From NCBI RefSeq assembly GCF_017656475.1, contig NZ_JACDNT010000010.1:1-59459 (forward strand): DNA of 59,459 nucleotides. Reading direction: 5' to 3'. Under the pieces are notes generated by a model. It saw only the letters and a list, made by a program, of their open reading frames with translations. It did not search any database and had not been told where the DNA came from. A program made the position numbers and the translations under genes. Source of the stretch: Archaeoglobus sp. (GTDB lineage Archaea; Halobacteriota; Archaeoglobi; Archaeoglobales; Archaeoglobaceae). This document shows, piece after piece, positions 7,374 to 28,567 of the stretch. Each line of letters starts with the position of its first letter. Position 1 is the stretch's first letter.

Positions 7374-8632
7374 CCGATGATGGTGTACTTGCTCAAATCT
7401 ACTGCCTCCATTTTTTCCTGGTGCTCCTTCAGGAAGTTTCTGATCAGTTCAGCAGCCATTTTCTTGCATTTCCCGCAGAGCATCCTCCCCTCCCTGCAGT
7501 CTGCCTCAATCTGCCTCAACTCTTCATCTTTTTCAATTAAGTGGTAGCTGTAAAGCTCGAACACGACGCATTTCTCAGGCTCTCCTCCAAGTCTTCTCTG
7601 CTCCTCGGCAGTGGCCCTTCCTCCCGTAAAAGCTCTCATGACCTTCTTCGCTCCCTCTTCTGGAGAGTCGAGCAGGGAGATATAGCTCTCAGGCTTGCTT
7701 GAGCTCATCTTCCCTCCTGTAAGGCCGGTGGTGAATCTGTGGTATGTTGACGATGGAGGAATGAAGGCAAAGCCTCCAATATTAACCTCAATTTCTCTCA
7801 CAGCCCTCTCAATCTCCTCCACATCGCCAAAAATGTCGATGTGTTCCTCGTAAACTTTCTTTTCAAAATCAAGCTTTTTGATGTTGTCTAAATAATCACC
7901 CCCCTTTCTGCTCCTGATCCTCAAACCTTTCTCTATCGGTTCGAAGCTGAAAATGCTCACTCTCGCTGCGAGGTCTCTGGTCAACCGCATGTGAGGATCC
8001 TGATCCGCCCCGACGGGCACAACGACTGGCTTTGGCCCCCCAAAATCCGAAAGCTGGGGATGGAGGATGTCAGCAGCCTGAACAGCGGTAACGAACATCT
8101 TTGCAAGGCTTGTGTCCGAGTTAAAGCCGTATATAGCTCTCAACTCGCTGAAGTTTACCTCTGCTGAAAGTTCGAAGGCGAGATCCTTTACGTGGGGACT
8201 TTTTGACTGGAAGTAAATTACAGCATCCTCGTTCAGGCCAAGGGCTATGATGGATTTGATGTAGAACAAACCGAGCTCCCTTGTCTTCTCCCAGCTCAGC
8301 CCCCTTACCGAGTGTGCCTCCATGTCTGCTATCGCAACGAATGCCGTACCACCAGACCTCTGATGCCAGACGATTTCATCCATCGTCATTTTGTGACCGA
8401 AATGCGGTAAGCCGGAGGGCATGAAGCCCGACATCACCGCCCACGGTTCTCCGCGCTTCATCGCTTTAACAATTCTCCAATAGTCCCTGTGACCGAAAAT
8501 TGCCCCTCTCCTCATCAGGATGTGCGGATTCTCAATTTCAGGAAGCACTTCGCTGAATGGCTGCATCCCGAACTCCTCGATGAGCTTGCTGTAGTCAATG
8601 ACTCCCTCGACCTCCCATGGTGTGACGTTCAT
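7370..8632 (-). CDS. trpS: Tryptophanyl-tRNA synthetase
   Basis: A 420-residue class I synthetase of archaeal/eukaryotic type. The HIGH-like motif is PSGLPHFGH near residue 80 and the KMSKS motif is KMSSSK near residue 320, with VGADQDPH between. The open frame runs upstream to 9088, but that extension lies opposite panE and has no protein character; the start is ATG 8632 (MNVTPWEV). The archaeal/eukaryotic lineage fits the large insertion and the C-terminal CGKCKK segment. It is divergent from panE across 50 bp. Confidence 0.95.
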
Positions 8633-17183: not shown

Positions 17184-18152
17184 GTGAGGTTTGGTACTGC
17201 TGTAACAGCCCTGCTCGCGCTCAACATTCTGGCCTTGATGCTATCTCTAGGAGTTGGTAGCGGAGGCTACGGATATCTTTTTCAGGTTATTTCCGGAAAT
17301 GCTGATGATACTGCTATGAAAATCGTTCTCGACTACAGGCTGCCGAGATACCTGATGGCGATAATCGCAGGGGCCTCGCTTTCAGCGTCAGGCTGTGCCA
17401 TGCAGGCTTTGTTCAGAAATCCTCTTGCCGAACCATACGTTCTCGGCGTGGCGAGCGGGGCGAGTGTAGGTGCTGCATTGTCAGTAGCTCTCTCCATGGA
17501 GACTATTTATTCGAGAATCGGACTTGCCTTCTTCTCCGCCCTCCTTACTGCTTATGTTGTTTATCTGATAGGTTCATCATCCAAGTTTCGCGACCAGACG
17601 TATGCGATCCTTCTGGCTGGAGTTGCCATAGCGAGCTTCTTTTCCGGCCTGACCTCCGTTCTGATTTACTTCTCAGCTCAGAGCATGCACAAGGTTGTTT
17701 TCTGGTTGATGGGAAGCTTCTCAAACCCCTTCATCGAGGAAGTTCTGTTCGCATTGCCCATAACCATCGCTGGGCTTGCTTACCTTCTTTTTACCTCCTG
17801 GAACCTCAACGCTCTGCTGCTGGGTGATGAGCATGCTGCGGCTGTGGGCATAAACGTTGAGAGGTTCAGGAAGTCTTTGATAGCCGTTGTGGCCCTCCTA
17901 ACATCAACAACTGTGGCAATCAGCGGTGTGATAGGCTTTGTGGGGATAATTGTCCCACACACGATGAGGATTCTGGTTGGGGAGGAGCATCAGAAGTTGC
18001 TCCCATCCACGATACTCCTCTCCACAGCGTTCATGCCGGTCATAGATGTGGTGGCGAGGATTTCAACGAGCGGGGAGTTGCCGGTTGGAGCGATAACGGC
18101 AATGCTCGGTGGGCCATTCTTCCTTTACCTGCTGATGAGGAGGTCGGTATGA
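17184..18152 (+). CDS. btuC: FecCD/BtuC-type ABC permease, probably corrinoid
   Basis: A 322-residue permease with about ten helices. LDYRLPRYLMAIIAGASLSASGCAMQALFRNPLAEPYVLGV is the core FecCD/BtuC signature (shown here as contiguous short motifs LPRYL, AGASLS and FRNPLAEP). The cytoplasmic coupling segment and GVIGFVGIIVPH near residue 255 are intact. Iron-siderophore and B12 permeases look alike; the neighbours cbiZ and the DUF4430 proteins argue for corrinoids. It overlaps the ATPase gene by ATGA. Confidence 0.82.
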   Translation: MRFGTAVTALLALNILALMLSLGVGSGGYGYLFQVISGNADDTAMKIVLDYRLPRYLMAIIAGASLSASGCAMQALFRNPLAEPYVLGVASGASVGAALSVALSMETIYSRIGLAFFSALLTAYVVYLIGSSSKFRDQTYAILLAGVAIASFFSGLTSVLIYFSAQSMHKVVFWLMGSFSNPFIEEVLFALPITIAGLAYLLFTSWNLNALLLGDEHAAAVGINVERFRKSLIAVVALLTSTTVAISGVIGFVGIIVPHTMRILVGEEHQKLLPSTILLSTAFMPVIDVVARISTSGELPVGAITAMLGGPFFLYLLMRRSV

Positions 18153-19366
18153 GGCTTGTGGTTAAAGGGATAACGGTAACTCTCGGAAGCAGGGATGTGC
18201 TGAAGGATGTCACCTTCGAGGTTGAAGAAGGGGAACTGCTGGCTCTGCTTGGCCCGAATGGAAGCGGTAAGACAACGATGCTTAGAACGATATTCGGAAT
18301 GCTGAAACCTCTGAGAGGAGTGGTTTTGCTCGACGGCAAAGAAATCGGAAATGCCGAAGAGGCTGCAAGAAAGCTCGGTTTTCTTCCTCAGGACACGCCG
18401 TTAACGAACCTCAGGGTTATTGATATCGTCATGCTCGGCAGAACTCCATACTTGAGCGGGCTGAAGAGGCCGGGGGATGAGGACTATAGAGCAGCTATGG
18501 AGGCGTTGAGAGAGGTCGGGATGGAGGACATGGCCGACAGAATTTTCTCGGAGCTGAGCGGTGGGGAGAGGCAGAAAGTTATGCTTGCGAGGGTATTTGC
18601 ACAGCAGCCAGAGGTCATGCTCCTCGACGAGCCCACAGCGCACCTCGACATTGCCGCGCAGATTGAGATTATGGAGATTATACAAAACAAAGTTGAAGAG
18701 GGGAGGGCAGCATTAGTTGCTATTCACGACATAAACCTCGCATCCTCATTCGCCACCCGCATTTTGATGGTTAAGGATGGAAAGGTCGCTTATGCTGGCA
18801 GGCCGGAGGATGTCATAAACGAGGAGAGTATAAGGAACGTTTTTGGGGCTGATGTGGTTGTCAGAAGGTATGGAAGGGGTGTCTACATTGCTCCAAAGCC
18901 GAAAGTTCCAAATGGTTTGAAAAGAGTTCACGTCATCTGCGGTGGGGGGAGTGGTAGGGAGATTCTCCACATGCTCAGGGATGCTGGCTACAAAGTCTCA
19001 GCAGGTGTTGTCAACGTCCTGGATTCTGACTGGGAGGTTGCTGCTGAGCTCGGTGAAGTTGTTGACGAGGCTCCTTTCTCTCCGATAAGCGATTCATCCC
19101 ACAGGAAAAACATTGAGACTATCGAGAATAGCGATGCTGTTGTTCTCGCAAACCTCAGCTTTGGAAGAGGGAATTTCAAAAATTTGCAGGCGGCGATGTA
19201 TGCCGCGAACCTCAACAAGCTGGTTGTGATGGATAAAACCCCCTTCAAAGAAAGGAACTTCGTGGGGAAGGAAGCCGAGGAACTTTACAGGGAAATTCTG
19301 GAAAGAGCCGTGGTTGTGAAAAGGGAAGAGGAGGTTCTGGATGCAGTACGAAAACTACTGGGTTGA
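18149..19366 (+). CDS. btuD: ABC ATPase of corrinoid uptake with long C-terminal extension
   Basis: A 405-residue protein. Residues 1-250 are a normal ABC ATPase: Walker [11 protein letters not shown]-loop FLPQDT, signature LSGGERQK, Walker B VMLLDEP, H-loop IHD. A further 150 residues follow, opening VHVICGGGSGREILHMLRDAGY and containing NVLDSDWEVAAELG and a conserved DEAPFSP, giving a Rossmann-like look. This tail is seen in archaeal B12-type ATPases and is of unknown role; it might bind a corrinoid or nucleotide. The 3' end overlaps cbiZ by 26 nt. Confidence 0.82.
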   Translation: MRLVVKGITVTLGSRDVLKDVTFEVEEGELLALLGPNGSGKTTMLRTIFGMLKPLRGVVLLDGKEIGNAEEAARKLGFLPQDTPLTNLRVIDIVMLGRTPYLSGLKRPGDEDYRAAMEALREVGMEDMADRIFSELSGGERQKVMLARVFAQQPEVMLLDEPTAHLDIAAQIEIMEIIQNKVEEGRAALVAIHDINLASSFATRILMVKDGKVAYAGRPEDVINEESIRNVFGADVVVRRYGRGVYIAPKPKVPNGLKRVHVICGGGSGREILHMLRDAGYKVSAGVVNVLDSDWEVAAELGEVVDEAPFSPISDSSHRKNIETIENSDAVVLANLSFGRGNFKNLQAAMYAANLNKLVVMDKTPFKERNFVGKEAEELYREILERAVVVKREEEVLDAVRKLLG

Positions 19367-19907
19367 TGACAATACTTTGGTTGTTTCAGGAGACTTTTTC
19401 GGTGTAAGCACAGGCCTGCTGGGAGGGTGGGGGAGAGTCAAGTATGCCTTCAACCATACCGTTTCAGACGAGTTTTACTCAATGGAGCCTGCTGAATACC
19501 TCAGGAAGGTCGCGAGATCCTATGGCTTGAGGTCGTATTTTGGCCTGCTAACCTCCGTGCCGATGGACAAGCTGAGCGTGAGAAGCTGGGGAGAGGTGAC
19601 GGTATTTACCACAGCAGGTGTGCTGAACCCCAACGAGAAAGTGGGGACGATAAATACCATAGCGATTTTTGAATGCAGGATGAGCAGGGCAGCAATGCTC
19701 AACGCAATCATAACCGCAACTGAAGCAAAGGCTAAAGCCCTGCTCGAATCTGGACACAACTTCACCGGCACGAACACCGATGCCGTTATTGTGCTCTGCA
19801 CTCAGAAAGGCAAATACCACCGATACTCCGGTCCTGCGAGTGAAGTAGGGCGGAAGCTGTGGAAATGTGTCGGAGAAGCTGTTAAAGAGAGTCTGGCAAA
19901 GTGGTAG
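19341..19907 (+). CDS. cbiZ: Adenosylcobinamide amidohydrolase
   Basis: A 188-residue CbiZ. It cleaves the aminopropanol arm of adenosylcobinamide to give adenosylcobyric acid, letting the cell rebuild its own cobamide from scavenged corrinoids. Recognised by GGWGRVKYAFNHTV, TTAGVLNPN, GTINTIAIFE and the C-terminal TGTNTDAVIVLCT segment. The start at ATG 19341 lies inside btuD, so translation is coupled. Its presence is the strongest evidence that this ABC system carries corrinoids. Confidence 0.9.
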   Translation: MQYENYWVDDNTLVVSGDFFGVSTGLLGGWGRVKYAFNHTVSDEFYSMEPAEYLRKVARSYGLRSYFGLLTSVPMDKLSVRSWGEVTVFTTAGVLNPNEKVGTINTIAIFECRMSRAAMLNAIITATEAKAKALLESGHNFTGTNTDAVIVLCTQKGKYHRYSGPASEVGRKLWKCVGEAVKESLAKW

Positions 19908-19962
19908 GCGGTATGGTAGCAAATCAAATACGTTTTACATTACATCAAATAATCTGGAAAAC

Positions 19963-19971
19963 TTTATAAAC
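19963..19971 (+). promoter_or_regulatory. TATA box of the secreted DUF4430/btuF operon
   Basis: TTTATAAAC is centred about 26 nt before ATG 19993. A CTGGAG stretch sits three bases before the ATG, too close for a normal ribosome site. This would be a second, separately driven unit after cbiZ. Confidence 0.55.
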
Positions 19972-19992: not shown

Positions 19993-21837
19993 ATGAGGAA
20001 AGTTGTTTTGATTTCCTTCCTGCTGGTCATGGTTACTGCAACAGCTAACGCCACCACGTTTCACGGAGATGAGCAGAGAACGGGGAATTTCAGTGTAAGC
20101 AGCGAAATTTTGCCGATTCTGGCATGGAAGAAGGAACTGACAGGACTGGTAGGTGCTTCACCCGTTTACAGTGACGGACATATCTTCGTCACCAACTGGT
20201 ACGGGTGGGGAAGCTGGAGTCCCGGTTTATACTCGCTGAATGCTGACACTGGAGAGGTGGAGTGGAGGAACGACAGGATTACTGGAGCTTCAAGTGTGGC
20301 AGTTTATGGGGATACGGTTATTGTTGGAAACATCTCAGGACATCTCCACTATGTAAACGCCACCACCGGGGCAATAGAGAAATCAGTTCTGCTCGAATCC
20401 TCTCCATCGTGGTGGGGAATTGCATCTTCGCCTTTAATCTACAACGGCTCGGTCTATGTCACAACATTCTCCAACGGAACGCTTTGGAGTCTGGATCTCA
20501 GCGGAAATGTTCGGTGGAGGTTCACCACTGGAGGAGAGATTGCCCACTACACCTCACCCACTGCCTACAACGGTCTTATCTTCTTTGCTGGCAACGAGAG
20601 TGGAAGTAACGCGCTGTTTGCTGTTGATGAGACCGGAAATCTGGTGTGGAGGTTCCCCGTTGAGGGGAAGATAACAAACACTCCATCCGTGGGTTATGGC
20701 AAAGTCTTCGTTGCTACCGACGAAAAGCTCTATGCCGTCAATTTAGACGGTAGCGAAGCTTGGAGCGTGAACTTCAACGGAACCATGTCAACTGCAGCTA
20801 TTGCCTACGATAAAATCTATGTGGGCTCCTCTGAGGGCAAGCTCTACTGTTTCAATGCAACTACTGGGGAGAAGCTGTGGGAGTTCACCGCTAACGGAAA
20901 AATAGATTCTTCACCTGCAGTAGCCGGCAACGTCGTTTACTTCGCAACCAACACACCTCAGGGAACGATTTATGCGGTTAACGCCGATACTGGCAAACTT
21001 TTGTGGTATTACAGGCTCATTCCACCCTCAGGAAGCTATTACAACATCATGTCCTCCCCCTTTATAGCCAACGACAGGCTGTATATTGGGGCAGACAGCG
21101 GCTTTGTATACTGCTTTAACGTTTCAGGCAGCTTGGCGTATGACGTTTCTTTAATTCCCGGCAAGTTTGATGTTGAAGTAAATGGAAAAACTTACAGTGT
21201 AAACAGGGCAACAGCAATGGGTGCACTTTATGCTGCCCAGCAACATGCGGAGGTCTTCTTTGAGATAACTCTGGACGATAGCCGGTATGATGAACAAACG
21301 GGAACGGGTCTCTTCATATCCTCTATAATGGGCCTTGAAACTAGACAGGTTAACGGAAATTCAATAAACTGGTCAATATGGAACGAGAGCAAGGAATTGA
21401 TTTCCGTTACTGCCGACGCTTACCGGATTTCGGGATGTGAAACCATTTACTACTGCTACGGTGATGGGAGCAGCCTCGACACCTGTTCAGTGCTTCTCAT
21501 GATAAACTCGGAGGTAAAGCCGGTAGGTATCTCATCTCTGACGGTCTCGGATGGAAGGAGGGGAGGAAATGCAACAGCATGGGTAAACGTCACCTCTGCC
21601 GAAAACGGGTGGTATGTCGTGGTCGTGAGTGGTGTAAATGGCGAGGGTGAAGCGATAGCAGGAATTTCAACCTTCCACCTCAACGCTGGAGATGAGTTGA
21701 GAGTTCCGGTGCTGGTTCATATTCCGCAGCTCGCCGATACTGGAAGATATAACCTCTACGCAGGAGTTTACAGGTTTAGCGATTATCCCGGGAATCTCAT
21801 CCACATCTATGGCCCTGAAACCTGTGAGGTGAGCTGA
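19993..21837 (+). CDS. Secreted PQQ-type beta-propeller protein with DUF4430-like domain
   Basis: A 614-residue secreted protein. Residues 1-20 form a signal peptide (MRKVVLISFLLVMVTATANA). Residues about 40-380 are repeated beta-propeller blades of PQQ/PQQ-like type (YSLNADTGEVEW, YAVNADTGKLLW, CFNATTGEKLWEF). Residues about 394-490 resemble DUF4430 (transcobalamin C-terminal-like): NRATAMGALYAA, GTGLFISSIMGLE, INWSIWN, and a YYCYGD end. The last 110 residues form a beta-rich domain. There are many N-x-S/T sequons and no membrane anchor. The gene overlaps the next by one base (TGATG). Placed between cbiZ and btuF, it probably takes part in corrinoid capture at the surface; the function is inferred. 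Confidence 0.75.
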   Translation: MRKVVLISFLLVMVTATANATTFHGDEQRTGNFSVSSEILPILAWKKELTGLVGASPVYSDGHIFVTNWYGWGSWSPGLYSLNADTGEVEWRNDRITGASSVAVYGDTVIVGNISGHLHYVNATTGAIEKSVLLESSPSWWGIASSPLIYNGSVYVTTFSNGTLWSLDLSGNVRWRFTTGGEIAHYTSPTAYNGLIFFAGNESGSNALFAVDETGNLVWRFPVEGKITNTPSVGYGKVFVATDEKLYAVNLDGSEAWSVNFNGTMSTAAIAYDKIYVGSSEGKLYCFNATTGEKLWEFTANGKIDSSPAVAGNVVYFATNTPQGTIYAVNADTGKLLWYYRLIPPSGSYYNIMSSPFIANDRLYIGADSGFVYCFNVSGSLAYDVSLIPGKFDVEVNGKTYSVNRATAMGALYAAQQHAEVFFEITLDDSRYDEQTGTGLFISSIMGLETRQVNGNSINWSIWNESKELISVTADAYRISGCETIYYCYGDGSSLDTCSVLLMINSEVKPVGISSLTVSDGRRGGNATAWVNVTSAENGWYVVVVSGVNGEGEAIAGISTFHLNAGDELRVPVLVHIPQLADTGRYNLYAGVYRFSDYPGNLIHIYGPETCEVS

Positions 21838-24266
21838 TGCTTCGCGGCGTATTTGCAGTTCTTACTTTAATTTTCCTGCTTCCCTTGGCATCAGCCTTAA
21901 CCCTCTCGGTCAGCGGGGAATGTGTTGGGGAGAAAGTCACTGTGACTACAGACGAGAAAGCAGTGGTAATCTTTAGAATGAACTTTGGAACTCCGATTTT
22001 TTCCGAATCTTCGCCATCCTCTCCTGCATACTTCAAGCCGAGAGTTGAGGGAGAGCTTCTCATAACTGCCATTGCTGATGATGAAGAGGTTAGCAAAACC
22101 ATCCAGATCAAAACATGCAGCAGTGGTGGAGGAGGTGGCGGTGGAGGGAGCAATCAGCAATATCTTCCCTACGGAACCTTCGAAGTTCTCGGCAGAGAGG
22201 TGGAGTGGAGAACAGCATACGGAGCGCTGAAGAAGGCTGGCGATATACTGCACTTCACAGTCACTCCCGAACTCACGGACTGGGGGATTTTCGTCAAATG
22301 TGTGAAGGATTTGTGCAAAGGTGATATTGGCGATACTTCGGGCTGGATGTACTGGGTCAACTATCCAGATGAACCTATGCCAGGAGTTGCAGCAACCGAT
22401 TACAGAGTAAGTCCCGGAGACAGGATAGTCTGGTACTTTTCCCGCAGCATGAGCGACACTCCCGAAAATTCGCCTTACAAAATATACATAAGCATAAGAG
22501 ATGATTACAAAATCTCCGTTAGCATGGTCTGGCCGTCGAAAGTTCCGCCTGTTGCCGACTTCACGTTCTCTCCGAGCAATCCAACTGCTGGAGAAGAGAT
22601 TGTGTTCAACGCGTCCAAATCGGTCGATGATGGACAGATAACCGACTACATCTGGAACTTCGGAGACGGAAAAAGCGGAAGGGGTATGACTGTAACCCAC
22701 ACTTACACATCTCCGGGCACATATGAGGTCTCTCTCACAGTCTTCGACAATGACGGGCTGTCTGATACCGTTACAAAGACTGTAAACGTCAGTGAGGCTG
22801 GGATTAAGCTGAACTCCACAGAGCAGGTTATACCAATCCATCCCGGGGAGACCAAGGTAATACCATCCGAAGAGATTGTGGCGAACCTTTCTATCACCGC
22901 TTTAACCTTTCAATCGGAAAAACCTGCGGAGGTTGTCATTTCCAAGTGTAATATACCTCCAGGGGTGGTTTACGGAACTTTTTACAGGTGGTTCGAGATT
23001 ACAGCAAATGATTCGGTAAGGGCAAAGATAGATTTCAGAGTCCCGAAGGGTATTGCAGAGGGCAAAGAAGTAGTCCTGATGAAGTACAACGGGAGCTGGT
23101 TTGAGCTTCCAGCTGAGAAAACGGGAGAGGACGAGAATTACCTGTACTTCTCCGCCGAGATTAATTCATTCAGCGTTTTTGCCATCACCATCAAGTGGGA
23201 CGACTTCCCTCTCAATGCGACGGATGAGAGAATACAGAGAGCCCTTGAATGGCTCAAAACCATTCAAAATGGGGATGGGGGATTTGCAAATCCGGGGGAG
23301 AACAGCAGCATTTCCGCTACGGCATGGGCAATCATGGCCATAGTTGCTGCAGGTGAAGACCCTCACGGGTGGGTTAAGGACGGTAAAAGCCCAATTGACT
23401 TCATAAAGGAGAGGCTGAGAGATGAGATGGACACGATGGGGGCTGAAGATTACGCGAGAATTATACTGGCTCTGGTTTACGCAGGTGAAAATCCTAAGAA
23501 CTTTGCGGGTGTTGATCTCGTTAGCAGGCTGAAGTCCTACGTAAAAGAGAACGGCCAGATCGGTGACTTCACGTACAAGACCATCTGGGGGATTATCGCC
23601 TTGGCATCTGTAGGTGAAAATGTGTCCATGTCGGCGGAATGGTTAAAATCGCACCAAAATGCTGACGGGGGATTTTCGTGGAGCGTGGGGGAGGAGAGTG
23701 ACTTTGACGACACTGCCGCTGCGATACAGGCATTGATAGCTGCCGGAGAACCAAAAGACTCGGCTGTAATCAAAAAAGCACTGGATTACCTCAAAACAGG
23801 CCAGAACGATGATGGGGGAATGAGGTACTTTGGAAATTCAGCAAGCAATGCTGGCAGCGATTCCTGGACCATACAGGCCCTCGTTGCAGCGGGCATAACT
23901 CCCACTGAATGGATGAGAAACAATACGAGTGTTGTCGACCACCTCCTAAGCCTACAGGCAGAAGAGGGATACTTCAAGTATACAAAGTTTCAGACTTCCA
24001 ATCCGGGCTACATGACAGTTTCCGCCATCATGGCACTGCTCGGAAAGCCGCATCCCATCAAGGTGAACGCCTCTCTCGCTACAGTTAGCGTTACTCCATC
24101 TGCAACTGCAACCACAACCGTTACAGCAAGCACAACTGTTACAGCAACTACCTCCATAGCAAACGTAACGACTGTAACCGAAAGCACAACCACTCCGGGA
24201 TTTTCCACGATCGCAGTTATTGTAGCATTAGCTTTAACTGCAGCTCTTTTAAGAGGGAGAGTATGA
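21837..24266 (+). CDS. Transcobalamin-like surface protein: DUF4430-PKD-alpha/alpha barrel-PGF-CTERM
   Basis: An 809-residue cell-surface protein. Order: signal peptide (1-20); a short beta domain; a glycine run near residue 102; DUF4430 at about 109-224 (GWMYWVNYPDEPMPGV, then a Y-R-V-S-P-G-D-R-I-V-W-Y end); PKD at about 238-321 (WNFGDGKSG); a PGF-pre-PGF-like region at about 325-455; squalene-cyclase/prenyltransferase-type repeats at about 461-735 (QNGDGGFANPG, QNADGGFSW, QNDDGGMRYFG); a Thr-rich stalk; then TPGF, a hydrophobic helix and R-G-R, a PGF-CTERM signal for archaeosortase. Animal transcobalamins pair an alpha6/alpha6 barrel with a DUF4430-type beta domain; here the same two parts occur in reverse order next to btuF. 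A role as cobalamin-binding protein is an inference from architecture and context. Confidence 0.8.
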   Translation: MLRGVFAVLTLIFLLPLASALTLSVSGECVGEKVTVTTDEKAVVIFRMNFGTPIFSESSPSSPAYFKPRVEGELLITAIADDEEVSKTIQIKTCSSGGGGGGGGSNQQYLPYGTFEVLGREVEWRTAYGALKKAGDILHFTVTPELTDWGIFVKCVKDLCKGDIGDTSGWMYWVNYPDEPMPGVAATDYRVSPGDRIVWYFSRSMSDTPENSPYKIYISIRDDYKISVSMVWPSKVPPVADFTFSPSNPTAGEEIVFNASKSVDDGQITDYIWNFGDGKSGRGMTVTHTYTSPGTYEVSLTVFDNDGLSDTVTKTVNVSEAGIKLNSTEQVIPIHPGETKVIPSEEIVANLSITALTFQSEKPAEVVISKCNIPPGVVYGTFYRWFEITANDSVRAKIDFRVPKGIAEGKEVVLMKYNGSWFELPAEKTGEDENYLYFSAEINSFSVFAITIKWDDFPLNATDERIQRALEWLKTIQNGDGGFANPGENSSISATAWAIMAIVAAGEDPHGWVKDGKSPIDFIKERLRDEMDTMGAEDYARIILALVYAGENPKNFAGVDLVSRLKSYVKENGQIGDFTYKTIWGIIALASVGENVSMSAEWLKSHQNADGGFSWSVGEESDFDDTAAAIQALIAAGEPKDSAVIKKALDYLKTGQNDDGGMRYFGNSASNAGSDSWTIQALVAAGITPTEWMRNNTSVVDHLLSLQAEEGYFKYTKFQTSNPGYMTVSAIMALLGKPHPIKVNASLATVSVTPSATATTTVTASTTVTATTSIANVTTVTESTTTPGFSTIAVIVALALTAALLRGRV

Positions 24267-25222
24267 AGAAGCTTGTTATATTTCTTTTAATCGCTATCCT
24301 TCTACCCCTCTGCGCATCCAAGACTGCAGAGGAAGAAGTATCATTTAATATGACAGAAATCTTCAACGCTACACCCATCGACGACACCGGCTACAATATT
24401 TCAGAAGGGAATCCCCAGAGAATAGTCTCTCTCGCTCCCAGCAACACGGAGATACTCTTTGCAATAGGTGTGGGAGACAGGGTTGTGGGAGTGACGGATT
24501 ACTGCAATTACCCTCCAGAAGTCGTCGAGAAGAGGGAGAGAGGGGAGCTTGTAAGTATTGGCGGTTACACCACAATAAACATAGAGAAGATAGTTTCCCT
24601 TAACCCGGACCTCGTCGTGGCATCCTATGGAAACGGTATTGAGAATATAGAAACCCTCAGAAGGATGGGGTTGAATGTTATAGCCTTTGACCCAAAAACG
24701 GTTGAAGAGGTGATGAGAGACATTGTCCTGATTGGAATAGCAACCGGAGAAAAGGAGAATGCCACGAAGCTTGTTAACTGGATGGTTGAGAAGATTGAAG
24801 GAGTCAGGGAGAAGGTGAGGGATAAAGCGAGGGTGAGTGTTGCTCACATCCTGTGGTACGATCCGATATGGGTTAGCGGCAAAAATACGTTCATTGATGA
24901 GGTCATAAGGCTTGCAGGAGGTGAAAATGTCTTTAAATTTGAGGGATGGAGAACTGTGAGCGTTGAAGATTTGATTGCAGCAAATCCTGACGTGATACTG
25001 GTCAGCAGCGGATCCGGGATGGGTGGAGGCAGAGATGTGGTTTACGAATGGATCATGAGTGACGAAAGACTGAGCGGAATTAAGGCTGTTAAAGGGGGCA
25101 GGGTTTACGTTGTCGATGCGGACATCATAAGCCGTCCGTCATACAGGCTTGCTGAGGCCGTCGAAATAGTTGCCGAGTATTTGCATCCTGAGGTTGGGTC
25201 AAAATCGAAAATTGGCGAGTAA
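24263..25222 (+). CDS. btuF: BtuF-type substrate-binding lipoprotein
   Basis: A 319-residue periplasmic-binding-type protein of the FecB/BtuF family. The N-terminus is a lipoprotein signal (hydrophobic core then LLPLC). The domain opens with PQRIVSLAPSNTEILFAIG, continues with VVGVTDYCNYP and has AANPDVILVSSG in the second lobe. It delivers substrate to the BtuCD complex. It overlaps the preceding DUF4430 gene by ATGA. Iron chelates are the alternative substrate; context favours corrinoids. Confidence 0.82.
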   Translation: MKKLVIFLLIAILLPLCASKTAEEEVSFNMTEIFNATPIDDTGYNISEGNPQRIVSLAPSNTEILFAIGVGDRVVGVTDYCNYPPEVVEKRERGELVSIGGYTTINIEKIVSLNPDLVVASYGNGIENIETLRRMGLNVIAFDPKTVEEVMRDIVLIGIATGEKENATKLVNWMVEKIEGVREKVRDKARVSVAHILWYDPIWVSGKNTFIDEVIRLAGGENVFKFEGWRTVSVEDLIAANPDVILVSSGSGMGGGRDVVYEWIMSDERLSGIKAVKGGRVYVVDADIISRPSYRLAEAVEIVAEYLHPEVGSKSKIGE

Positions 25223-25331: not shown

Positions 25332-26252
25332 CTAAAAATATCCTCCAACAGATACTTTCATACCACTCTTTTCGAGGAAAGCAGCGAATTCGGTGGCAAT
25401 CTTCCTAGCGTTCTCGACCATTTCTGTCGTTTCCAGGATGTATTCTCTACCCAGCAGCCTGTATTTGTCTCTCGCTAAGGAATGGTATGGCAGGACATCA
25501 ACCCTTTCGACTCCAACACTCTCCAGCACTCCCAAATATCCCTCAAAATCCTCATGTTCAAAGTTGTAACCGGGAATCACGGGGATTCTGACTATAACCT
25601 CCGCTCCACTGTCAACAAGCTTCCTGAGGTTCAAAAGGATGGTCTCATTTCCAGCTCCACACGTTCTTCTGTGCCTGTCATCTCTGTAATCCTTCAAATC
25701 GTAAAGGAAGAAATCAACAAAAGGCAAGGTTCTCTCAATAACCTCCCATCTCGCATAACCGGAGGTGTCAACTGCCGTGTTTATCCTCCTGCTCTTACAG
25801 GCTCTCAGCAGTGCAAGGAGAAACTCAGGCTGAAAGTAAGGCTCACCACCTGAAAACGTCACTCCCCCACCGGAGTTTTCGTAGAACACTCTGTCCTTTT
25901 CAACAATAGCGATAACTTCCTCAACCGAAACGTCCTTTCCAAAAATCTCCAGAGCCCTACCGCTACACACCTCGACGCATTTACCACATCTGTCGCACAT
26001 CTCTCTGTTTATTTCTATCCCTTTCTCTGCTGCAACAATTGCACCTTTATCGCAGACTTCAGCGCATTTATAGCATGACAGACATTTCTCAGCTTTATAT
26101 CCGACCTCTGGCTCGAAACTCTGCGACTCTGGATTATGGCACCAAACGCAATGGAGGGGGCACCCTTTCAGAAATACTGTCGTCCTTATTCCGTAACCGT
26201 CGTGGATCGAGAACCTCTGTATCCTGAATATTCTGCCCTTCATAGCTTGCAT
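25332..26252 (-). CDS. pflC: Glycyl-radical enzyme activating protein (radical SAM)
   Basis: A 306-residue activase. Radical SAM motif GCPLHCVWCHNPES (C-x3-C-x2-C) near residue 30, then two [4Fe-4S] motifs (CLSCYKCAEVC and CDRCGKCVEVC), SGGEPYFQPEF, and TSGYARW. The double ferredoxin insert is typical of activases for glycyl-radical dehydratases and fumarate-adding enzymes rather than classical PFL. The start ATG 26252 overlaps the end of pflD by 13 nt; ATG 26243 overlaps by 4 (26240-26243) and is equally likely. It abstracts hydrogen from the glycine of the neighbouring enzyme. Confidence 0.9.
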   Translation of the reverse strand: MQAMKGRIFRIQRFSIHDGYGIRTTVFLKGCPLHCVWCHNPESQSFEPEVGYKAEKCLSCYKCAEVCDKGAIVAAEKGIEINREMCDRCGKCVEVCSGRALEIFGKDVSVEEVIAIVEKDRVFYENSGGGVTFSGGEPYFQPEFLLALLRACKSRRINTAVDTSGYARWEVIERTLPFVDFFLYDLKDYRDDRHRRTCGAGNETILLNLRKLVDSGAEVIVRIPVIPGYNFEHEDFEGYLGVLESVGVERVDVLPYHSLARDKYRLLGREYILETTEMVENARKIATEFAAFLEKSGMKVSVGGYF

Positions 26253-28567
26253 GAAACCCTGCGAATTATCTCATCCTGCACGGGTTTTGAGAGTTCCACA
26301 AAGTAAGCACTCCACCCGGCAACTCTCACAAGGAGCCATCTGTACTTTTCTGGCTCTTCCTGAGCCTTTTTCAGAACGTCTGCCTTTAAAATGTTGAACT
26401 GAGCGTGCATGCAGCCCAAATCCAACGCACTTTTGATCAGGGCTTTTATGATCTCGACACCTTTTGACCCAAGCACATCTTCGCTCAGATTCAAGGTCAG
26501 TGATGCTCCGTTAGGTATCTTTGCGTAGTTTATCTTTGAAGCGGACTTGATTACACCAGTAGTACCCTCCCTGTCCATCCCGGTTGATGGGCTGACACCC
26601 GGATTTAGGGGCTCACCACTTCTTCTACCAGATGGCAGTGCTGAGGTAAGGAACCCGAATCCGACATTTGTGGTCATGGGATAGCAGCCAGCAGCAAAAT
26701 ATCCTCCCCTGAAGTTTCTATGCCTGTTGACTTCATCGCAGTAGAATTCAAGAACCATCCTTGTGTATTTGTCCGCCCTATCATCATCGTTGCCATACTT
26801 CGGGCTCTCAATCAGGATTCTGTGGAGCTCTTCATTGTCAACAAAGTTTGTCTTGCATGCTTCAATTATCTCATCCATCGTGTATCCTGCCTCTAAAGCT
26901 CTTTCAATAGCTGCAAGTGAATCCCCAACGTCAGCAACACCAACAGCCTGTATTCCTGTGAAGTTGTATCTCGCACCACCCCTTGTCACATCTCTGCCCT
27001 CTTCAAAGCAGTCTTCAATGCAGAGCGACAAAAGCGGTGTTGGTTTGATTTCAGCATTTGCATATCCGAGAATATTGCATCCTTTTACAACGAGCTTTAT
27101 TATGTGTGCAAGCTGCTTTCTGAAGTTTTCAATCAGTTCTTCCAGCGTTTTTGGCTTTTCCGTCTTTACACCAAATTCATGACCAAACTGAACGTCTTTT
27201 CCTTCGTTCATTGCGTATTCCAGAGCTTTGGCAACATTTATCAGGGCAGCATCGCTGGAGGTGAAGCTGTTACCAAAAGGTGCAATTTCTACACAGCCGA
27301 CAGTGGTGTAATTCCAAGCATCCTCGTCTCTCACACCCATAGCCCTTAGAGCTTCAACCGCAACCTCGTCATTAAACAAAGCTATGGCATTACAGCCTGA
27401 AGCTATAACTTCGGCTAGTTTAACCAGAAAATCCTCAGGAGTTCCTTTGCTCACTCTCACATGGACGTTCGGCTGCCTAAGCCTTAGCCTGTTCGTAACT
27501 TCAAGCATGAGATACGTCAGCTCATTCGTAGCGTCTCTTCCGTAGATGTCGCATCCTCCAATTGTTAGAGCCTGATTTGTTGTCTGACCGCTGAAGAACT
27601 GTTCAAGCAGTGAGTCAAATGGGGGAACTATCTCGTTTGTCTTAATCCACAGATTCGCGAGAATTTCAAACGCTTTATGCTTGTCAATTCTACCCTCCTT
27701 CAAGTCTCTGTAGTAGTAGGGATAGAGATACTGGTCAATTCTTCCCATCGAAATGGCTTGCTCGTAATTCTCCTGATGAAGAGCGGATTGAACAAGCCAT
27801 AGAAACTGAACAGCTTCCCAGAAGCTCTCTGGCTTCTCTGCTGGAACTTTTCTGCAGATTTCTGCGATTTTCAAGAGCTCATCTTTCCTCGTTTCATTCT
27901 CAGTCTCTTCTGCAATCCTCTCTGCGAGTTCAGCGTATCTCAGACCGTAATTTATTATTGCCTCAGAAACTATTCTTGCTGCATGATAAAATACATACTC
28001 CTCTCCCTCATAAACGCCGTTCTCCTCAAGCTCTTTAATCCTCCTTTCACTCTCCTCCAGAAACCATCTGAAACCTCTTCTCATCAGATATGGATAATTT
28101 ATTGCTACATGAGATATTCCAGCAAGCTCGGTCAGAACGAAGACCGAGCCAGTGTAAAGAACGCTCATGATATCGGGCATTAATGGAAACGAAAAGGCCT
28201 CAATAGTTCTTTTCTGCCAGTAAGGAGCTATTTCTTCTCTGAGAACTCCTGCATCTTCTTCGTCAACAAGCAACCTGTTTGTCTCTCTTTTGGGCAAGGT
28301 GTCAAGCTCATTTATCAATCTGAGACCCACACCCTCTGGAAAAAGAATTGCTCCCGGAGGATTGGGGAGCATGGTTCCAACAATTAATTCGTCGTCAAGT
28401 ATCTGAATAGGTATGTTCTCAAGAATATTCTTCAGGGCTTTTGCCTGCCTTAATATCATTGGTTCTCCTTCACTATTCCTCATTGAATCTGTATACAGCT
28501 TTGCCCTCTCGATACTGAGTCTTGGAGGTTTTGCCAGATTTCTAACAAGAGTTTCAATCCTGTCCAT
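26240..28567 (-). CDS. pflD: PFL-like glycyl-radical enzyme
   Basis: A 775-residue glycyl-radical enzyme. The active-site Cys lies in TTVGCVEIAPFG at about residue 423, and the glycyl-radical motif RVAGWSAYF is at about residue 750. CVE after Gly resembles glycerol/diol dehydratase-type enzymes, in which the Glu is catalytic. The A. fulgidus homologue has been proposed in the literature to act as an alkylsuccinate synthase in n-alkane oxidation; sequence alone does not settle this. It is not a classical PFL, which has adjacent cysteines. A TATA-like AATAATTTATC lies about 20-25 nt upstream of ATG 28567. Confidence 0.85.
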   Translation of the reverse strand: MDRIETLVRNLAKPPRLSIERAKLYTDSMRNSEGEPMILRQAKALKNILENIPIQILDDELIVGTMLPNPPGAILFPEGVGLRLINELDTLPKRETNRLLVDEEDAGVLREEIAPYWQKRTIEAFSFPLMPDIMSVLYTGSVFVLTELAGISHVAINYPYLMRRGFRWFLEESERRIKELEENGVYEGEEYVFYHAARIVSEAIINYGLRYAELAERIAEETENETRKDELLKIAEICRKVPAEKPESFWEAVQFLWLVQSALHQENYEQAISMGRIDQYLYPYYYRDLKEGRIDKHKAFEILANLWIKTNEIVPPFDSLLEQFFSGQTTNQALTIGGCDIYGRDATNELTYLMLEVTNRLRLRQPNVHVRVSKGTPEDFLVKLAEVIASGCNAIALFNDEVAVEALRAMGVRDEDAWNYTTVGCVEIAPFGNSFTSSDAALINVAKALEYAMNEGKDVQFGHEFGVKTEKPKTLEELIENFRKQLAHIIKLVVKGCNILGYANAEIKPTPLLSLCIEDCFEEGRDVTRGGARYNFTGIQAVGVADVGDSLAAIERALEAGYTMDEIIEACKTNFVDNEELHRILIESPKYGNDDDRADKYTRMVLEFYCDEVNRHRNFRGGYFAAGCYPMTTNVGFGFLTSALPSGRRSGEPLNPGVSPSTGMDREGTTGVIKSASKINYAKIPNGASLTLNLSEDVLGSKGVEIIKALIKSALDLGCMHAQFNILKADVLKKAQEEPEKYRWLLVRVAGWSAYFVELSKPVQDEIIRRVSCKL

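Follow-up and report, generated by a model that had tools for sequence, protein, structure and literature searches.

Gene organization of the probable corrinoid transport locus

The window (the whole stretch of DNA that was analyzed, 59,459 nt) carries the gene order btuC-btuD-cbiZ-[propeller]-[transcobalamin-like gene]-btuF, with starts and stops that mostly overlap:

17184..18152 (+), BtuC-type permease of a corrinoid ABC importer (FecCD 289.7 bits; the best NCBIfam match is the BtuC model, below its equivalog cut-off)
18149..19366 (+), BtuD-type ATPase with a C-terminal extension (best NCBIfam match, which stays below its cut-off, is to "corrinoid ABC transporter ATPase" in residues 3-368)
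19341..19907 (+), CbiZ, adenosylcobinamide amidohydrolase of corrinoid salvage (Pfam CbiZ 145.6 bits, cut-off 27)
19962..19969 (+), possible archaeal TATA box, CTTTATAA, found by eye ~25 bases 5′ of the propeller gene start
19993..21837 (+), secreted beta-propeller protein of PQQ/BamB type whose C-terminal part has a DUF4430-like and an Ig-like domain (PQQ_2 145.6 bits)
21837..24266 (+), transcobalamin-like surface protein, 809 aa (intact ORF; Pfam, NCBIfam, alignment and AlphaFold model)
24263..25222 (+), BtuF-type corrinoid substrate-binding protein (Peripla_BP_2 134.2 bits; NCBIfam BtuF 110.5 bits, below equivalog cut-off; wide alignment)

The components of a BtuCDF importer are present, i.e., an FecCD permease, an ABC ATPase and a Peripla_BP_2 protein, together with the corrinoid enzyme CbiZ. 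The NCBIfam equivalog cut-offs for BtuC, BtuD and BtuF are not reached, and we take the importer to be one for corrinoids because CbiZ is encoded in the operon and because the best matches of BtuC and BtuD are corrinoid models. The initial annotation of this DNA had placed the gene for the 809-aa protein directly before btuF, which is correct (btuF starts at 24263, an overlap of 4 nt with the 3′ end of that gene), and after btuC, btuD and cbiZ, all of which do lie upstream, although one propeller gene stands between.

The possible TATA box suggests that the propeller gene, the transcobalamin-like gene and btuF may have their own promoter. A scan of the window for bacterial-type promoters and terminators gave no more sites than expected by chance, and a search with Rfam found no cobalamin riboswitch in the window, the only model to pass being a tRNA. 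The same genome has genes for CbiD (corrin ring) and CobS, from which we consider that the organism can probably synthesize cobamide itself; the presence of CbiZ would fit salvage running alongside such synthesis.

Domain architecture of the 809-aa protein

From its N-terminus, the protein consists of a signal peptide, a beta domain (residues ~21-95), a DUF4430 domain, a PKD domain, a PGF-pre-PGF domain, a toroid and a PGF-CTERM-type tail. The features that we could place are:

21837..21896 (+), signal peptide, residues 1-20 (by eye; hydrophobic N-terminus kept in homologues)
22152..22508 (+), DUF4430, a transcobalamin-type beta-grasp (SLBB) domain (Pfam PF14478; PDB profile matches led by transcobalamins)
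22542..22790 (+), PKD domain, spacer (PKD_4 80.5 bits, residues 236-318, Pfam)
22953..23189 (+), PGF-pre-PGF domain (TIGR04213 46.6 bits, cut-off 28; residues 373-451)
23199..24080 (+), alpha6/alpha6 toroid, residues 455-748 (Pfam, conservation and AlphaFold model)
23565..23567 (+), Asp577 in NGQIGDFTYKT (paired in the alignment with NGIIGDIYST of intrinsic factor)
23700..23711 (+), D-x-D-D, Asp622/624/625 (falls on the DXDD region when aligned to squalene-hopene cyclase)
24195..24263 (+), C-terminal tail of PGF-CTERM type, membrane anchor (PGF, hydrophobic and basic pattern, kept in homologues)

The match to PF14478 covers residues 126-202 and scores 35.1 bits against a curated cut-off of 23.8 (Pfam). 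The toroid has Pfam matches over residues ~596-744 to SQHop_cyclase_C (57.8 bits) and Prenyltrans (48.6 bits), and in the AlphaFold model of the protein (pLDDT 87.7, pTM 0.60) it is predicted with high pLDDT as 12 helices in residues 464-734 (444-714 in the numbering of the model, which starts at residue 21), that is, an alpha6/alpha6 toroid with the fold seen in transcobalamin. The alpha/alpha barrel described in the initial annotation is therefore there, and Pfam and the model agree that DUF4430 lies N-terminal to it, the reverse of the order in transcobalamin, as had also been noted. The PKD spacer was likewise correctly identified, though it is missing from many homologues in the alignment and so is dispensable. 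As to the proposed PGF-CTERM anchor, the pattern exists and is kept in homologues, but no PGF-CTERM model of NCBIfam matched the 809-aa protein directly and the assignment rests on the motif. Three parts had been overlooked: the PGF-pre-PGF domain, the beta domain ahead of DUF4430, and a DUF4430-like domain encoded in the preceding propeller gene.

The toroid is the most conserved part of the protein, with a mean column identity of 73% (17 Archaeoglobales and related sequences) vs. 65% for DUF4430. Among aligned toroids, position 577 is Asp in 22 of 23 and the motif SD-x-DD-T is invariant or nearly so. The N-termini of the inner helices bear 11 acidic residues and one basic residue, which we count in favor of corrinoid capture; conserved positions are not significantly concentrated at these N-termini, the mouth of the cavity (54 of 294 circular shifts do as well).

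Relationship to animal B12 carriers and to cyclases

When a wide DUF4430 profile was compared with the PDB, the top five matches were all transcobalamins (4kki, E = 1.3e-4; 5no0, E = 0.0067; three more at ~0.065), and a WGxxxxCIxxxC hairpin is common to the Archaeoglobales DUF4430 domain and haptocorrin. Judged by these sequence matches, the archaeal beta domain is recognizably homologous to that of transcobalamin, in agreement with its earlier assignment to the family of the transcobalamin C-terminal domain.

The toroid gave a different picture. In the PDB it best matches squalene-hopene cyclases and further terpene cyclases (E = 4.7e-31), the 367-aa cyclase MstE being one of the matches, and there was no B12 carrier among the 60 matches listed, up to E = 10. 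The idea that the toroid is a direct sequence relative of transcobalamin thus finds no support in the PDB profile searches. Alignment by hhalign with segments of intrinsic factor, haptocorrin and transcobalamin, fetched with a query fragment that differs from the PDB chain at a single position, produced one weak 35-column match, KENGQIGDFTYKTIWGIIAL with KDNGIIGDIYSTGLAMQAL (37% identical, P = 1.6e-4, probability 50%). It pairs Asp577 with intrinsic factor Asp204 (numbered as in chain 2pmv), a residue that we take to contact cobalamin, as Asn224 of transcobalamin presumably does. The toroid D-x-D-D, for its part, aligns with the DXDD region of cyclase 1gsz (359-419), so that the class II terpene cyclase motif is present and descent of the toroid from an enzyme is plausible. 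The 50 matches listed from a fold search with the whole multidomain model include small squalene cyclases, at a TMt near 0.6, but not a B12 carrier; the search was dominated by complement/TED and PKD matches and is of little use for single domains. The earlier statement that the protein is built from the same parts as intrinsic factor is consequently secure for the beta domain, whereas for the toroid it holds at the level of fold, the nearest solved sequences being squalene/terpene cyclases.

Linkage of the toroid to BtuF

Profiles of the toroid and of BtuF were each searched over 290 genomes of the phylum and the positions of their matches paired; the sequences behind the toroid profile came from Archaeoglobales and from loci selected for DUF4430, not for BtuF. 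Among the best 50 toroid matches, with the proviso that genomes of relatives are not independent samples, 15 are encoded together with BtuF in a single ORF, 24 have BtuF at most 500 bases downstream, eight have it 0.5-1.4 kb downstream and three have no BtuF match at the threshold used. For one of these three (locus L127 of genome G117, which belongs to the genus of the window) btuF is directly downstream but split over two overlapping frames, 7376-8391 (-), by a frameshift or a sequencing error, bringing the total to 48 of 50. The 18 weaker toroid matches mostly have no BtuF nearby. A gene that usually accompanied unrelated transporters would, according to the initial annotation, have spoken against its reading; instead, 47 of the best 50 matches, 48 with the frameshifted case, either form one ORF with BtuF or have it no farther away than 1.4 kb. 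The toroid module is, in short, strongly linked genetically to BtuF.

All 15 fusions belong to four archaeal families other than that of the window (f6, f16, f24, f25), and in six of them (L087, L089, L091, L092, L095, L097) Pfam finds Peripla_BP_2 and SQHop/Prenyltrans in a single ORF. About 20 Archaeoglobales and related loci keep both the domain architecture and the order propeller, toroid protein, BtuF, often with BtuC, BtuD and CbiZ alongside, and hence the domain set of the 809-aa protein is not a chance match. The genes cbiZ, btuC and btuD recur at L002-L006, L009, L011, L108, L114, L115, L127 and L129. At L093, L094 and L124 the toroid and DUF4430 are in separate genes.

The neighboring propeller protein

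One further feature lies within the propeller gene:

21145..21417 (+), DUF4430-like domain in degenerate form (scores too low for Pfam in the window; seen by alignment with related proteins in which it exceeds the cut-off)

Relatives of the propeller protein at L002, L013, L014, L021 and L022 have one or two DUF4430 copies per protein that exceed the Pfam cut-off, and propeller proteins of other archaeal families have up to four or five. We infer that the propeller protein is probably a partner of the transcobalamin-like protein. The possibility that it is a seven-bladed relative of BtuG was rejected, since the best fold and sequence matches (model pLDDT 92.4) are BamB, YxaL, tetrathionate hydrolase and PQQ-type proteins.

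Three side observations concern related propellers. The protein of a near relative, L002 7714-9618 (+), is 44% identical overall to that of the window with an almost identical C-terminus and an intact DUF4430, a pattern resembling a mosaic in which the propeller part has been exchanged. At L105, 5465-7990 (+), a single ORF of 841 aa joins BtuF to a PQQ-type propeller, which gives this system another type of fusion. DUF4430 proteins and many PQQ-type propeller proteins are clustered at L101, L118 and L120, with no BtuF nearby, and would represent further surface proteins of the DUF4430 kind.

Comparison with known systems

Like animal transcobalamin, intrinsic factor and haptocorrin, the archaeal protein is a single secreted polypeptide that has both a toroid and a beta-grasp domain of the DUF4430 family. 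Unlike them, it has the domains in reversed order, joined by PKD and PGF-pre-PGF; the animal carriers are soluble, whereas the archaeal protein is anchored, its corrinoid binding is putative and its toroid is nearer in sequence to squalene cyclases. The cobalt-binding histidine of transcobalamin has no evident counterpart in the archaeal protein, and most intrinsic factors and haptocorrins also lack it.

The DUF4430/transcobalamin-like SLBB clade was defined by Burroughs et al. (2007; PMC1796856), who described bacterial fusions of SLBB and toroid in both orders, read them as likely B12 scavengers, and reported paralogous SLBB genes in one operon and fusions with propeller and Ig domains. They also listed an Archaeoglobus SLBB protein and considered a distinct metabolite for archaea. 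The bacterial SLBB-toroid proteins resemble the system described here in that either domain order occurs, in surface anchoring, in a second SLBB paralogue in the operon, in the propeller/Ig fusions and in the inferred B12 scavenging. They differ in transporter, as the bacterial operons have CbiO/CbiQ-type transporters and the archaeal locus has BtuF-BtuCD and CbiZ, and the toroid-BtuF fusion found in archaea is absent from the text of Burroughs et al. (2007). B12 scavenging by a protein of this kind had thus already been proposed in outline, and it is the BtuF-linked arrangement that appears to be new: in searches of the open literature we found no description of the archaeal BtuF-linked module or its fusions.

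There is also a likeness to BtuG and BtuH of Bacteroides, surface proteins that hold B12 for a transporter, all the more so as BtuG is a beta-propeller, like the archaeal neighbor. However, BtuG has seven blades and serves a TonB-dependent transporter of the outer membrane, whereas the archaeal propeller is of the BamB/YxaL types and would feed at most an ABC importer. Relative to the archaeal BtuCDF importer with CbiZ, all four components of which are found here, the window adds a surface module before BtuF, and other families fuse that module to BtuF.

Proposed function and alternatives

We confirm what the initial annotation observed at this locus, and its interpretation, a cell-surface cobalamin trap made of intrinsic factor parts, is partly supported. 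Building on the domains, conserved gene order, toroid-BtuF fusions and DUF4430 family membership that we observed, we consider it likely that the 809-aa protein is a cell-surface capture protein for corrinoids (cobamide/cobinamide) that works with BtuF-BtuCD by the two-domain logic of transcobalamin. With a corrinoid inferred as the ligand, two domains as the clamp and the propeller protein as partner, the order of hand-off would be as follows. The DUF4430 beta domain of the 809-aa protein, and that of the propeller protein, would take hold of the corrinoid and the toroid would close over it; the corrinoid would then pass to BtuF and on to BtuCD, and CbiZ would remodel it inside the cell. Such salvage would run beside the organism's own cobamide synthesis (cbiD, cobS). 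In the vertebrate carriers, cobalamin is bound first by the beta domain, after which the alpha domain closes; each domain can bind when isolated, and it takes the ligand to bring the two together (PMC11107200). Because carrier domains can bind alone and meet through their ligand, a reversed order or separate chains need not matter, and a clamp independent of order and chain fits the archaeal series: one reversed chain in Archaeoglobaceae, separate genes at the three loci given above, and a toroid carried on BtuF.

Could the module serve the same importer but a different ligand? Several observations count against corrinoid capture: the toroid sequence is not detectably closer to transcobalamin than to cyclases and its hhalign match to intrinsic factor is weak, de novo corrin genes are present, DUF4430 occurs apart from BtuF at L101, L118 and L120, and conserved positions show no significant concentration at the inner-helix N-termini. 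Evidence of the second kind, biosynthesis genes in the genome, was what Burroughs et al. (2007; PMC1796856) used in favor of a different metabolite for the archaeal proteins. The module might thus assist BtuF while binding another tetrapyrrole or a metal chelate, or it might merely scaffold or tether BtuF at the S-layer with no contact to the ligand; importers of the Peripla_BP_2/FecCD type do carry haem and siderophores too, and the matches to BtuF and BtuC fall short of their equivalog cut-offs. Nevertheless, we regard this as rather unlikely, as corrinoid-specific CbiZ is encoded in the operon and at the loci of relatives, the nearest solved relatives of DUF4430 are B12 carriers, and salvage alongside de novo synthesis accords with CbiZ.

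Did the toroid instead remain an extracellular enzyme similar to class II terpene cyclases, or the remnant of one? The cyclase matches and the aligned D-x-D-D, with an enzyme as small as MstE among those matches, speak for it. But the protein is secreted and anchored, nearly all of the best toroid matches (47/50) are fused to or beside BtuF, the operon has no terpenoid genes, and intrinsic factor too has acidic residues in the corresponding segments (VDT, GD-Y-T), all of which makes a cyclase function most improbable. Equally slight are the chances of a general adhesion or S-layer protein present in the operon by coincidence, a reading suggested by PKD, PGF-pre-PGF and PGF-CTERM being common in archaeal surface proteins and by DUF4430 proteins unlinked to BtuF. 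It is the toroid rather than the spacers that is conserved, and the toroid is tied to BtuF in several archaeal families; given the fusions, this reading is disfavored.

Corrinoid capture, the reading that we prefer, would offer a concrete archaeal counterpart of the animal B12 carriers that is open to testing, and the toroid-BtuF gene fusions speak to the doubt, left in 2007, about a role of archaeal DUF4430 proteins with corrinoids. Should binding be demonstrated, it would bear on the origin of the parts of intrinsic factor and would give a function to proteins now named just squalene cyclase-like, DUF4430 or PQQ-like propeller. More tentatively, and with somewhat less than even confidence, we envisage a dedicated external corrinoid relay in Halobacteriota. 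A propeller with at least one transcobalamin-type beta domain would catch the corrinoid and a transcobalamin-like toroid would shut on it; this toroid, which four families carry as a fusion to BtuF, would then deliver the corrinoid to BtuCD. In such a relay a carrier resembling transcobalamin would be physically linked to the binding protein of an ABC importer.

Downstream of the corrinoid operon, and convergent with it, are the genes for a glycyl radical enzyme, 25332-28567 (-), which reaches no equivalog cut-off and belongs to the TIGR01774 family (1205.7 bits), and for its activase.
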